Below, in pieces: positions 13,584-21,482 of a stretch of 64,000 bases of DNA. The notes under the pieces are model-generated. The model saw nothing but the letters and a program-made list of their open reading frames with translations, was not told where the DNA came from and ran no database searches. The stretch covers positions 1-64,000 of the forward strand of contig QBVY01000002.1 of the NCBI GenBank assembly GCA_003283765.1, in the 5' to 3' direction. Position numbers and translations under genes: made by a program. Position 1 is the stretch's first letter. Each line of letters begins with the position of its first letter. This DNA is from SAR86 cluster bacterium AG-313-N18 (GTDB lineage: Bacteria > Pseudomonadota > Gammaproteobacteria > Magnimaribacterales > D2472).

Positions 13584-14591
13584 ATGTCAGATAAAGAAAA
13601 AAACTTAAATGAGACTTTATCCCAAATTGAAAAGCAGTTTGGTAAAGGAACTGTCATGAAAATGGGGGATAGGGAAATTGTGGATATGCCATCAGTTTCT
13701 ACTGGTTCACTAGGCTTAGATATAGCGCTAGGTATTGGCGGCCTCCCAAAAGGAAGAGTTGTAGAAATTTTTGGGCCAGAATCATCTGGAAAAACAACTT
13801 TAACGCTTCAAGCCATTGCTGAATGCCAAAAAGCTGGAGGTACTGCAGCTTTTATAGATGCTGAGCATGCACTTGATCCAAATTATGCTGAAAAATTAGG
13901 TGTGAATGTAGATGAACTTTTACTTTCGCAACCTGATACAGGAGAACAAGCCCTGGAAGTAACAGATATGCTTGTAAAGTCTGGAAGCGTAGATTTGATT
14001 GTTGTAGACTCTGTAGCCGCTCTCACTCCGAGAGCAGAGATTGAAGGTGATATGGGTGATCATCATATGGGTCTTCAGGCTCGCTTGATGTCACAAGCAC
14101 TAAGAAAAATTACAGGAAACATACAGCGTTCTAATGCCATGGTTATATTTATTAATCAAATTAGAATGAAGATTGGAGTTATGTTTGGTAATCCTGAGAC
14201 GACTACTGGGGGCAACGCCTTAAAATTTTACTCCTCAGTTCGACTAGATATTAGACGTATAGGGGCTGTTAAAGAAGGTGAAGAAGTTGTCGGAAATGAA
14301 ACCAGAGTTAAAGTAGTAAAGAATAAAGTTTCTCCACCTTTTAAGCAGGCCGAGTTTCAAATTATGTATGGTGAGGGAATTAACACAGAAGGCGAGATTT
14401 TAGAACTAGGTCAAAAGCTTGAGTTGGTTGAAAAATCTGGATCTTGGTATAGCCATAATGGCGAAAAAATTGGACAAGGCAAAGTAAACGCAAGTAAATT
14501 TTTAAAAGAAAATACCAAGATTAGAGACAGTCTAGTAAAGGAAATTAGAAAAGCTTACATTCCGTCAGTGAATAAAACAGCTAAGAAATAA
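13584..14591 (+). CDS. recA: Recombinase RecA
   Basis: [36 protein letters not shown]. Confidence 0.98.
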
Positions 14592-15834: not shown

Positions 15835-17115
15835 TTAGCTACTTTTGAAGTGCTCAAAAATAGTTGAAATATCCTCAACTTTTCCAATAGAGCTTTGACC
15901 ATCTCTGTGTTTTAGCTCTATTTCATTATTTTGAAGATAATTTTTACCAATTATAATATTCATTGGAATACCAATTAATTCAGCATCCTTCATTTTAGTT
16001 CCATAACCATCTTTTCGGTCATCAAGCATCACCTCATATCCCATGGATGATAATTCGTTATATAAATCTGTTGCGGCTTTTGCTATTTTTTCATCCTTAT
16101 CAAAACCTATAGCAATAATATTTACCTCGAATGGAGTCATGGCCTCTGGCCATATGATTCCCTTTTCATCATTGTTTTGTTCTATTGCAGCAGCCACAAG
16201 CCTTGATACACCTATCCCATAGCAACCCATAAAAAGGTTCTTTGCTTTACCCTCATGATCAAGAACATTTGCTTTCATGGCATCTGTATATACTTTTCCA
16301 AGTTGAAAAATATGACCTACTTCAATTCCTTTTTTGATTTGAATGATGCCTTCTCCATCAGGAGAAGGTTTTCCTTGAAGAGATTCTAAATCCTCTCCTT
16401 CTTCTAATAAAAGTTCAGTGTTAATAGCAAAATCCGAAGAGTCACTGACCGCAATTGTATCTTCACCATTTTCAGCCAGGACATGGAATTCTTCTGAAGC
16501 ATCGCCACCAATTGCTCCTGAATCTGCTTTCACGATTTTAAATTTTAAGCCCAATCTATCAAGAATTTTTTTATAGGTTTCTTTCATTAAAAGATATGAT
16601 TCGTTCAATGACTCTTCATTTATGTTAAAGCTATAGGAATCCTTCATCAGAAATTCTCTTCCTCTCATAACTCCATATCTTGGTCTGACTTCATCTCTAA
16701 ATTTAGTTTGAATTTGATAAAGGTTTAGAGGTAATTCCTTATAGCTTTTCATGTTATTTCTAATTAAATCAGTTATTACTTCTTCATGAGTTGGTCCGAG
16801 GCAAAAATCTCTTTCATGCCTATCTTGAATTCGTAACAGTTCAGGACCCATCTTTTCCCACCTTTGAGTTTCTTCCCATAATTCTTTTGGTTGAACCATC
16901 GGCATAAGAACCTCTTGAGCTCCAGACGCATCCATTTCCTCTCGAACAATATTTTCAACTTTCCTTAATACCTTTAATCCAATTGGGAGCCATGTGTATA
17001 TCCCCGATGTAACTCTTCGTATCATCCCCGATCTAAGCATCAGTTGATGACTGATAACTTCTGCATCTTGAGGGGTATCTTTTAAAGTTGGTAAAAAAAC
17101 CTTAGACCAAAACAT
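15835..17115 (-). CDS. proS: Prolyl-tRNA synthetase, short form lacking the INS editing domain
   Basis: [25 protein letters not shown]...[15 protein letters not shown]...[25 protein letters not shown]...[10 protein letters not shown]; only a short linker between DFAINTELL and [11 protein letters not shown]. Confidence 0.95.
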
Positions 17116-17476: not shown

Positions 17477-19243
17477 ATGCGTTCACATTATTGCGGAGAT
17501 ATTAATAGTTCAGACATTGATAGCAATATTGAGATTTCTGGATGGGTTCATAAACGAAGAGATCATGGTGGCGTAATTTTTTTAGATATTCGTGATTTAC
17601 ATGGAATAGTCCAAGTTGTTTTTAATCCTGATTTAAGAGAAATATTTGATACTGCAGATTCATGCAGAAGTGAGTATGTCGTAAATATTAAGGGATTAGT
17701 GAGAAAGAGAATTGAGGGAGCTATTAATTTGAAAATGGCTACAGGAGAGATAGAAATTGAAGCAAGCAGTTTAAAAATTTTTAGTTCAGCTGTTACCCCT
17801 CAATTTCCTCTTGATGACTATCAAGATGTTAATGAGGATGTAAGGCTTAAACATAGATTTTTAGATTTAAGACGTCCCGATGTTAATCAAAGGTTGGTCA
17901 AGAGATCTCAGATTACTTCAAAGATCAGATCTATTTTAGAAAATAATAATTTTCATGAAATCGAGACTCCAATATTGACAAGAGCTACCCCTGAAGGAGC
18001 AAGAGATTATTTAGTACCTAGTAGAGTGCATCCTGGTGAGTTTTTTGCATTGCCCCAATCTCCTCAGCTATTCAAGCAGTTGCTAATGATTGGCGGAATG
18101 GATAAATACTATCAGATAGCTAAATGTTTCAGGGATGAGGATTTGCGTGCAGACAGACAGCCTGAATTTACCCAGGTTGATATTGAAGCTTCATTTATTT
18201 CTACTGAAGAAATAATAGAGCTTGGAGAGGACCTAGTTATATCATTGCTTTCTGAATTTACGGACTATCAAAAAGCAGAAGTACCAAGAATTACATACAA
18301 AGAATCTGTTGAAAAATACGGGTGTGATAAGCCTGATTTAAGAATCCCACTCGAGCTTAAGGATATATCCGAGCTTGTAAGGGATGAGGAATTTAAAGTA
18401 TTTTCTGGTCCTGCAAATGATCCTTCTTCAAGGGTTGTAGCCTTGAAAGTTCCAGAGGCAGCGTCTATGACAAGAAAACAAATTGATGAGTACACTGATT
18501 ATGTCGGTAAGTTAGGTGCAAAAGGTCTTGCATACATAAAAGTTGTAGATCTAGATCAAGAAAATGGACTTCAATCACCAATACTTAAATTCTTTCAACA
18601 AGACACAATTGATTCAATTCTTGCCTTCCTAAAAGTGCAAAATAATGACATTATTTTTTTTGGGGCTGGAAAGGCAGATATTGTAAATCTCTCAATGAGC
18701 TCATTAATCAAAAGACTTGGTGAAGATTTAAGTTTAATTAACTCCTCATGGGCACCATGTTGGATAGTAGATTTTCCAATGTTTGAGAGAAATAAAGAAA
18801 ATAATCTTACGTCTTTGCATCACCCATTTACTTTGCCTGCGGTAACTATAGATGAATTAAAAAAAGATCCAGATAATTCATTGGCTTGCGCATATGACTT
18901 TGTTTTAAATGGTTATGAGCTTGGGGGCGGCTCTTTAAGAGTGTATGAGCCTTCAATGCAAAAGGAAATATTCTCTATATTGGGCATTTCTTCTGACGAG
19001 GCCAAGAAAAAATTTGGTTTCCTTTTGTCTGCTTTATCATCTGGATGCCCACCTCATGGAGGTATTGCATTTGGCCTAGATAGAATTGTTATGTTGCTTT
19101 CAGATACGACTAACATCCGAGATGTTATTGCTTTTCCTAAAACACAAAGTGCATCATGTTTGCTTACTGACGCTCCTGGCATAGTCTCTGCTGATCAGCT
19201 TGATGAGCTGAGCGTCAAGTCAACTTTTGAATCGGAGCAATAG
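17477..19243 (+). CDS. aspS: Aspartyl-tRNA synthetase
   Basis: [19 protein letters not shown]...[33 protein letters not shown]...[16 protein letters not shown]. Confidence 0.97.
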
Positions 19244-19981
19244 ATGGCTGGACATTCCAAATGGGCAAATATTAAGCATCGAAAAGCAAGGCAGGATGCA
19301 TCCCGAGGAAAAGTCTGGACCAAGGTGATTAGGGAGATCACAGTTGCTGCAAAAGGGGGCCCAGATCCAAATGACAATCCCAGACTCCGACTAGCTTTGG
19401 ATAAAGCCAATGCTGCAAATATGCCCAAAGATACAATCAAGCGAGCAATTCAAAAGGGCTCTGGAACAGGCGAAACGGGTGCAATTGAAGAACTAACTTT
19501 TGAGGGCTATGGCCCTAATGGTGTTGCTATTCTGGTTGAGACGATGACGGATAACAGAAACAGAACAGTCGCAGATGTTCGCCATGCCTTTTCTAAATTT
19601 GGAGGTAATATGGGTACAGATGGTTCCGTTGCTTACCTTTTTAACAAGCTAGGAGTTGTGCAAGTGGATCTATCTCAAGACGAAGACCAAATCATGGAGA
19701 TTGCATTAGACGCTGGTGCAGATGATTTTACTGTGACAGATGATTATTTTGAAATCATTTCTACTCCAGCAAATCTATCTGCTGTTACCGAGGCTTTCAA
19801 GAAAAAAAATATTGAAACATTATTAGCTGAAAATACAATGAGAGCCGATACTCTAGTTAATCTAGATCAAGAAGCATCTGAGAAAGTTCTTAAAATTATG
19901 AATTTCATGGATGACCTTGATGATGTGCAAGAGGTTCATACAAATGCTGAATTTCCCGAAGACTTTACTGAAGAGGGGTAA
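19244..19981 (+). CDS. yebC: YebC/PmpR family protein
   Basis: MAGHSKWANIKHRKARQDASRGKVWTKVIREI. Confidence 0.96.
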   Translation: MAGHSKWANIKHRKARQDASRGKVWTKVIREITVAAKGGPDPNDNPRLRLALDKANAANMPKDTIKRAIQKGSGTGETGAIEELTFEGYGPNGVAILVETMTDNRNRTVADVRHAFSKFGGNMGTDGSVAYLFNKLGVVQVDLSQDEDQIMEIALDAGADDFTVTDDYFEIISTPANLSAVTEAFKKKNIETLLAENTMRADTLVNLDQEASEKVLKIMNFMDDLDDVQEVHTNAEFPEDFTEEG

Positions 19982-19983
19982 TA

Positions 19984-20406
19984 ATGGCGATCAACTCAAG
20001 AACTAAAGGAGCAAATTTTGAAAGAGAAATTGGCAATCTTCTTGTCGAGCAGTTGGATTTAAACCAACCAGTGAAAAGGATTCTTGAACAAACGCGAACA
20101 AAAGAATTGCCTGATTTAAAATTAGGTAGATGGTGTTTAGAATGTAAAAGATATGGAGATGGGTCTGAGCCATCTCAAGATTGGTGGGATCAAGTTTTAG
20201 CAGCTACAGGAGAGGGGGAGTTTCCGGCTTTAATTTATAAGTTTAATCGCCGGCCAATTAAAGTGAGGATACTTGCGGGAACTCTAATTCCAGAGCTAGA
20301 TTTTTCTCCAATGACGATTGATTTAATGTGGGAAGATTTCGTAGAAATTCTTCGGTACCTCTTTCAAGTAGATATTGAGCAACATGAATCCTCATTTCAG
20401 GTCTAA
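19984..20406 (+). CDS. Putative PD-(D/E)xK endonuclease / phage-type Holliday-junction-resolvase-like protein at the ruvC position
   Basis: NSRTKGANFEREI (Glu helix) ... LEQTRTKELPDLKLGRWCLECKRYG (PD...ECK) ... WWDQ; resembles phage putative PDDEXK resolvases from memory. Confidence 0.72.
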   Translation: MAINSRTKGANFEREIGNLLVEQLDLNQPVKRILEQTRTKELPDLKLGRWCLECKRYGDGSEPSQDWWDQVLAATGEGEFPALIYKFNRRPIKVRILAGTLIPELDFSPMTIDLMWEDFVEILRYLFQVDIEQHESSFQV

Positions 20407-20800
20407 AGATTTTTATTGCAGGGTTTACGTAGAAGATACAGATTTTCAGGGCGTTGTTTACCATGCAAATTATCTTAAATATTTAGAAAGAGCACGATCT
20501 CAGTTTTTAATTGAGAATAACCTATCTCAAACAGACGCAATGTCACGAGGGAATGAATCTTATGTTGTTAAATCTATCAATCTTTCTTTTTACCATCCAG
20601 CAATATTAGAAGATGAATTGACCGTGAAAACTGAAATAGAATTGGTTAGTAAAGCTAGAACTATATTTTTTCAATCTGTTTTGAATTCAAAAAATGATAC
20701 ACTCATTTGCAAGGGTGAAGTGGAGGTCTGTTTTATTAATAATGATTCTGGCAAACCAAAAGCTTTTCCTTTGGGCTTATTAAATTTATTTAAGAACTAA
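20384..20800 (+). CDS. ybgC: Tol-Pal associated acyl-CoA thioesterase YbgC (ORF can extend to TTG at 20375)
   Basis: CRVYVEDTDFQGVVYHANYLKYLERARSQFL hot-dog thioesterase motif; precedes tolQ. Confidence 0.93.
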   Translation: MNPHFRSKDFYCRVYVEDTDFQGVVYHANYLKYLERARSQFLIENNLSQTDAMSRGNESYVVKSINLSFYHPAILEDELTVKTEIELVSKARTIFFQSVLNSKNDTLICKGEVEVCFINNDSGKPKAFPLGLLNLFKN

Positions 20801-20801
20801 T

Positions 20802-21482
20802 ATGGATGACTTTTCAGTTATAGATTTATTTCTCCAGGCTAGTCTGATTGTTCAATTAGTCATGATTTTATTGTTAATAGTTTCAATCATTTCATGGATT
20901 GTTATTTTTGAAAGGCATTTTAATTTAAGCAGAATTAAACAAGCTAACAAAGAATTTGAAAAAGAATTTTGGTCTGGGAAGGATCTTAATGAGCTTTATA
21001 ATGATATCGATGAAACTTCTAATGATGTATTAGTAGGCTCTTTACGAGTTTTTAAACATGGATTTGGAGAATTCTTAAGACTAAGTGAGGGTCAGCAAAT
21101 TTCCATTGAAGACTTAGAAAGTGTTAATAGAGCGATAAGAGTATCGCTGGCAAGAGAAGAAGAATCATTAATGCATCATCTTCCTTTTTTAGCTAACGTT
21201 GGCTCGGTGAGCCCATATGTTGGACTTTTTGGAACAGTTTGGGGAATCATTAATTCATTTCAAGGCCTTTCTGATGCTACCCAAGCAACCATCAATGCTG
21301 TTGCTCCTGGAATTTCAGAAGCGCTAGTTGCAACAGCATTAGGTCTTTTTGCCGCAATACCAGCAGTAGTTGCATACAATAGGTTTGTATCAGATTCTGA
21401 CACCCAATTGCAACAATCATCTGTATTCGGGGAAGAGTTAGCTAGTATTCTTTATAGACAGACGGTGAAAACAAAGCTTTGA
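20802..21482 (+). CDS. tolQ: TolQ
   Basis: ANVGSVSPYVGLFGTVWGIINSFQGL...VAPGISEALVATALGLFAAIPAVVAYN. Confidence 0.95.
   Translation: MDDFSVIDLFLQASLIVQLVMILLLIVSIISWIVIFERHFNLSRIKQANKEFEKEFWSGKDLNELYNDIDETSNDVLVGSLRVFKHGFGEFLRLSEGQQISIEDLESVNRAIRVSLAREEESLMHHLPFLANVGSVSPYVGLFGTVWGIINSFQGLSDATQATINAVAPGISEALVATALGLFAAIPAVVAYNRFVSDSDTQLQQSSVFGEELASILYRQTVKTKL

Follow-up and report, generated by a model that had tools for sequence, protein, structure and literature searches.

The window analysed here is the whole 64,000-nt stretch at the start of contig QBVY01000002.1 from SAR86 cluster bacterium AG-313-N18. Between yebC and ybgC it carries a single open reading frame, opening with ATG and encoding a protein of 140 amino acids, which we refer to as nuclease X, or simply X (Table 1; L, G, f and g numbers denote loci, genomes, families and genera). 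The yebC stop codon ends at 19981, leaving a gap of 2 nt before the X ORF, whilst the most likely start of ybgC, whose product is a 4HBT thioesterase according to Pfam, is the ATG at 20384, giving an overlap of 23 nt with the 3′ end of X. On the 5′ side lie fmdB, aspS and yebC, and on the 3′ side ybgC, tolQ, tolR, tolA, tolB and pal. The first-pass annotation of this DNA had remarked on the lone ORF, and had noted that many gammaproteobacteria carry the order yebC-ruvC-ruvA-ruvB-ybgC-tolQ at this place; both observations stand, the measured gap and overlap being as given above and the latter order having been read directly in L339, L340, L343, L347, L038 and G487, among others. In the sampled RuvC loci ruvA adjoins ruvC in 20 of 20 and yebC lies beside them in 18, mostly followed by ruvB-ybgC-tol. 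The GC content of X (0.385) falls between that of yebC (0.41) and that of ybgC (0.31), and by composition it is thus not a recent foreign insert.

Table 1. Location of the genes discussed in the text; positions are those of the window except for the f38 loci.
Feature	Position	Strand	Evidence
Nuclease X, 140-aa PD-(D/E)xK, Hjc-like, predicted Holliday junction resolvase, ruvCAB slot	19984..20406	+	Pfam, PHROGs, AF2, Foldseek, residues
yebC, 5′ flank of slot	19244..19981	+	Pfam PF01709 and PF20772
ybgC, 3′ flank of slot	20384..20800	+	Pfam PF13279/PF03061; start position
aspS, first gene of conserved row	17477..19243	+	ORF; identical order in SAR86 loci
tolQ, heads conserved tolQ-tolR-tolA-tolB-pal row	20802..21482	+	Pfam MotA_ExbB 2.2e-37; synteny
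recA	13584..14591	+	ORF translation reads as RecA
f38 X′, PF24608/Hjc-like nuclease	L235:1137-1451; L236:2269-2583; L239-L247	- (L235); + (L236)	

Nuclease X is a PD-(D/E)xK nuclease of the phage family PF24608/phrog_244. The cut-off of PF24608 (PDDEXK_15, 'Phage putative PDDEXK endonuclease') is narrowly passed, with 28.0 bits against 27, and phrog_244 is matched at 9.9e-11; all 24 of the 24 SAR86 X proteins compared match both families, the best E value for PF24608 being 5.5e-12. No Pfam match to the Hjc model PF01870 was obtained for X at E<=1, nor was there any to RuvC (PF02075), the fold being PD-(D/E)xK and not RNase H, or to RusA (PF05866); the 'RusA-like' of the PHROG label is a name only. 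RecU (PF03838) gave no match for X (E<=1) or for the 24 members (E<=0.1), and a search of PDB sequences with X or its profile found nothing. AF2 models built from two different alignments reached pLDDT values of 87 and 89 and pTM values of 0.83 and 0.86. For both models the top 16 Foldseek matches in the PDB were all archaeal Hjc/Hje resolvases (best E 9.8e-4 and 1.2e-3, probability 1.00; TM scores to Hjc modest, at 0.4-0.6), with a restriction enzyme ranking below them, and a profile-profile comparison of X with Hjc returned a probability of 95.8%. The initial suggestion of a PD-(D/E)xK nuclease with a phage likeness, which was to be checked by structure prediction, is therefore borne out by the predicted fold and its nearest structures, by the two family assignments and by many relatives on phage contigs at 35-55% identity.

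The motif of X reads E13 ... P-D44 ... E53-C-K55 ... WW-x-Q70, and its residues are placed as in a PD-(D/E)xK core, which has an acidic residue in helix 1, (P)D on strand 2 and (D/E)xK on strand 3, with E13 in H5-24, D44 before E45-47, E53 and K55 in E50-57 and Q70 in H65-74. Residues E13, R14, R32, D44, E53, K55 and K86 align to E9, R10, R25, D33, E46, K48 and K81 of Pyrococcus furiosus Hjc, which are essential in that enzyme. In a 40-row alignment of X that takes in phage relatives, no variation is seen at R6, K8, G9, A10, F12, E13, R14, R32, Q36, D44, E53, K55, Y57, W67, W68 or Q70, and conservation of K86 is 90% or more. The E-D-E-K set is the catalytic set of the Hjc fold, and a phage enzyme with this fold, Hjc_15-6, cleaves Holliday junctions (PMC8805305). 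With Hjc_15-6 and the archaeal Hjc/Hje enzymes (PF01870; PDB 1gef, 2wcw, 1ob8) X shares an alpha-beta PD-(D/E)xK core, and with Hjc/Hje, its best structural matches, also the KGxxxER(E) start, the D, the ExK and the aligned arginines and lysine. It differs from Hjc in possessing a WWxQ motif and a further alpha/beta segment at the C-terminus, in carrying an EQTR loop where Hjc has G(F/Y), and in having a mesophilic bacterium as its host; as it does not reach the PF01870 cut-off, it is named Hjc-like and not Hjc.

PD-(D/E)xK folds serve many functions, the phage relatives are mostly annotated by similarity alone, and the alignment with Hjc does not extend into the C-terminal third of X (residues 98-140). 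These points would allow X to be a nuclease with another job, such as branched-DNA or flap cleavage, DNA-end processing or anti-phage activity, which merely sits where ruvCAB was lost whilst junctions are resolved otherwise. We regard this as unlikely, since the structural neighbours are specifically Hjc/Hje rather than restriction enzymes or exonucleases, the counterparts of Hjc R10, R25 and K81, which go beyond a minimal nuclease motif, are matched too, and two captures into the same slot (see below) point to the lost function.

A survey of the yebC-ybgC interval in relatives showed that the replacement of ruvCAB, which had been put forward from one genome, is order-wide and ancient. Of 200 relatives from the SAR86 order, 179 carry X, and each of the four families and 22 genera is represented among them; for the 40 order genomes that are at least 90% complete the figure is 38, and the listed order genomes that lack X are on average 78% complete. 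The row proS-fmdB-aspS-yebC-X-ybgC-tolQ-tolR-tolA-tolB-pal is identical in the larger SAR86 loci of families f1, f2 and f3, with the aspS-to-tol portion visible in the shorter ones, and a scan of named genomes found yebC-X-ybgC kept in 79 of 80 SAR86 loci, the remaining one (L148) reading yebC-X-tolQ. Family f4 retains yebC-X but ybgC is no longer next: tolQ follows X in one locus (L062, G110), and in another (L252, G113) X is followed by unrelated genes, with no tol gene within 7 kb. The median within-genus dN/dS is 0.036 for X, against 0.051 for yebC, 0.063 for aspS and 0.116 for ybgC, and the X protein distances track those of yebC, aspS and tolQ (Mantel r 0.78-0.82, with 0.78 for yebC; permutation p 0.001). 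The low dN/dS, together with distances which follow those of its neighbours, identifies X as a vertically inherited core gene; likewise its retention in so many relatives and the strong purifying selection upon it argue that the ORF is not there by chance. A prophage remnant was also considered, and is ruled out by the vertical inheritance and the order-wide synteny.

The RuvABC genes are used by almost all bacteria to undo the crossed DNA strands left after recombination. As the source assembly (1.198 Mb in 45 contigs) is only 73% complete, the whole order was taken as the basis for judging their absence. RuvC (PF02075 profile) was found in 0 of 200 SAR86-order genomes, and the ruvB model exceeded its cut-off in 0 of 200, leaving only AAA+ paralogues, the best of which scores 37 bits where the cut-off is 299; the RuvB_N matches in the source genome are likewise weak AAA+ paralogues and not RuvB. 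The ruvA model gave 0 of 56 order members over the cut-off, whilst two outgroup genomes score 216 bits, and the weak RuvA matches within the order were rejected as they cover just ~30-65 residues, mostly in the HhH region. RuvABC is absent too from the closed SAR86 chromosome CP097973.1 (isolate D2474-A1-1), and RuvC from single-contig SAR86 genomes (G033, G109, G111 and G113, among others). The loss of ruvA and ruvB, at first claimed for the locus alone, thus extends to the genome level across the order, and the proposed search for ruvC, ruvA or ruvB at other sites in the genome, extended to the order, brought up nothing over the cut-off. The incompleteness of the source genome might suggest that a SAR86 RuvABC exists but was missed, through gaps in the assemblies or divergence of the proteins. 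This is already contradicted by the profile searches, by the negative single-contig genomes and by a canonical slot that is intact and occupied by X, and we give it practically no weight. For comparison, RuvC was present in 262 of 276 sampled gammaproteobacterial genomes, of which four were SAR86 and all negative, leaving 262 of 272 outside SAR86; G202, G203, G220, G249 and G279 lack a YebC match too. In G261 (L234/L249) yebC is present and RuvC was not matched, and the stretch 3′ of yebC reads as N.

Homologous recombination is nevertheless kept in SAR86 while RuvABC is not: recA is present 5 kb 5′ of X, its product being 69% identical over a 328-aa stretch to that of another gammaproteobacterium. 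RecG was detected in the source genome (687 bits) and in families f2, f3 and f4, but was not found in genera g2, g4, g5, g6 and g7 of family f1, where the matches are Mfd-sized only. The RecG-negative SAR86 genomes (G027, G029-G032, G037-G039, G044-G046, G049, G050, G054 and G059) are without RuvAB as well. RusA (PF05866) was found in 0 of 45 order genomes. YqgF (RuvX) occurs throughout the order and in every tested member with a completeness of 90% or more. In principle it might itself resolve junctions, which would make it the true SAR86 resolvase and X an accessory; a resolvase role has been proposed for genomes without RuvC and RecU (PMC1193525), and at least one study treats YqgF of Deinococcus radiodurans as a putative resolvase (PMC9601230). 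However, most bacteria have YqgF alongside RuvC, so that it is no simple analogue (PMC1193525), and its presence would not account for an X that is near-universal, under strong constraint and placed in the ruvCAB slot; we consider this reading very improbable.

With regard to its origin, X belongs to the same sequence family as the PF24608/phrog_244 phage nucleases ('RusA-like Holliday junction resolvase'), its phage relatives being at most 55% identical, but it differs from those genes in being a fixed chromosomal core gene of a bacterial order and not part of a phage or prophage. In a phylogenetic tree, SAR86 X groups with the nearest viral copies in a single clade (100/95), inside which viral copies are nested at two points. 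The simplest reading is a single capture by a SAR86 ancestor, followed by passage from SAR86 to its phages; we infer that the first transfer ran from phage to SAR86. The SAR86-type copies nested in the SAR86 clade were observed on the IMG/VR contigs L150 and L151-L160, which are candidates for SAR86 phages that took up the host gene. Outside SAR86, members of the family were few among the 276 gammaproteobacterial genomes and apparently lie in prophages. The rare PF24608-type genes of L063-L066 (G390, G206, G285) stand beside replication, single-strand-binding, helicase or terminase-like genes, and these too appear to be prophage-borne.

A second lineage, new in this analysis, is found in family f38, gammaproteobacteria with genomes of 0.7-1.1 Mb, in which a different protein of 104 amino acids, X′, stands between yebC and ybgC. 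It occupies this slot at 9 of 9 f38 loci where it was found, one of which (L240) ends at the contig edge before ybgC, and RuvC is absent from both f38 genomes tested (97% and 98% complete). X′ scores 37 bits with PF24608, matches phrog_244 and falls just short of PF01870 (19.9 against 21.1 bits). It is related to a different branch of phage nucleases, and a single clade uniting SAR86 X with f38 X′, as expected of one inherited gene, is rejected (p-AU 7.7e-9). Trees of concatenated AspS, YebC and Tol proteins place f38 next to SAR86 (100/96, or 84/99 with G487 added), a position to be considered with caution as amino-acid composition was flagged as biased. There could have been one shared loss of ruvCAB followed by the acquisition of two different nucleases, or two full replacements, one in SAR86 and one in f38; both are possible. 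In either case enzymes of one kind have entered the slot on two occasions, and no other contextual evidence argues as strongly that they supply the lost function.

Taken together, a slot that holds X and the order-wide absence of RuvABC support the replacement proposed in the first-pass annotation. We put at roughly three in four the probability that X is a stand-alone, phage-derived Hjc-type resolvase kept in place of RuvC, with RuvAB lost; junction cleavage is its predicted activity. An ancestor of SAR86 would have captured the gene from a tailed phage and kept the nuclease instead of RuvC, with RuvA and RuvB being lost. By analogy with Hjc, X would act as a dimer in which E13, D44 and E53 hold Mg2+, K55 completes the active site, and R14, R32 and K86 contact DNA, so as to nick two opposed strands of the four-way junction; Q70 is a further conserved candidate for the active site. 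The gene is probably carried on one transcript with yebC and coupled in translation to ybgC-tol, in the way of ruvCAB in other genomes. Branch migration might be supplied by RecG or by another motor, or might not be needed. The wider proposal, towards which we lean with less assurance, is that in SAR86 a single phage-derived Hjc-type nuclease took over the site of the whole RuvABC set, and that a second gammaproteobacterial lineage with small genomes made the same exchange with a nuclease of separate ancestry; recombination would then be finished without the RuvAB motor and, in five SAR86 genera, also without RecG.

RuvAB is lacking in fewer than 2% of sequenced bacteria, which are for the most part parasites (PMC3403352), and both RuvC and RecU in only 10 of 117 genomes (PMC1193525). 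X shares with RuvC its locus and, putatively, its role, but RuvC has an RNase H fold and the order has no RuvC match. A parallel in kind is RecU of the Firmicutes and Mollicutes, a PD-(D/E)xK resolvase that substitutes for RuvC. However, RuvAB is kept in those groups, and nearly all genomes carry recU at a distance from ruvAB (PMC3403352, PMC1193525), whereas SAR86 is without all of RuvABC and its new nuclease occupies the ruvCAB slot itself. A literature search returned no paper linking SAR86 with ruvC, ruv genes or Holliday junctions. SAR86 is among the most abundant free-living marine lineages, and here it has dropped RuvABC and carries a phage-type nuclease of ~140 amino acids in the same operon slot, a solution that a second lineage has reached with a different phage nuclease. 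A core step of recombination may thus be supplied by a domesticated phage gene, and it becomes testable whether a simple resolvase suffices without RuvAB branch migration.

A minor observation concerns the proS-like gene of the window (15835-17115, minus strand), which codes for only 426 amino acids and which, judging by its size, we take to be of the short prolyl-tRNA synthetase type without the usual editing insertion.
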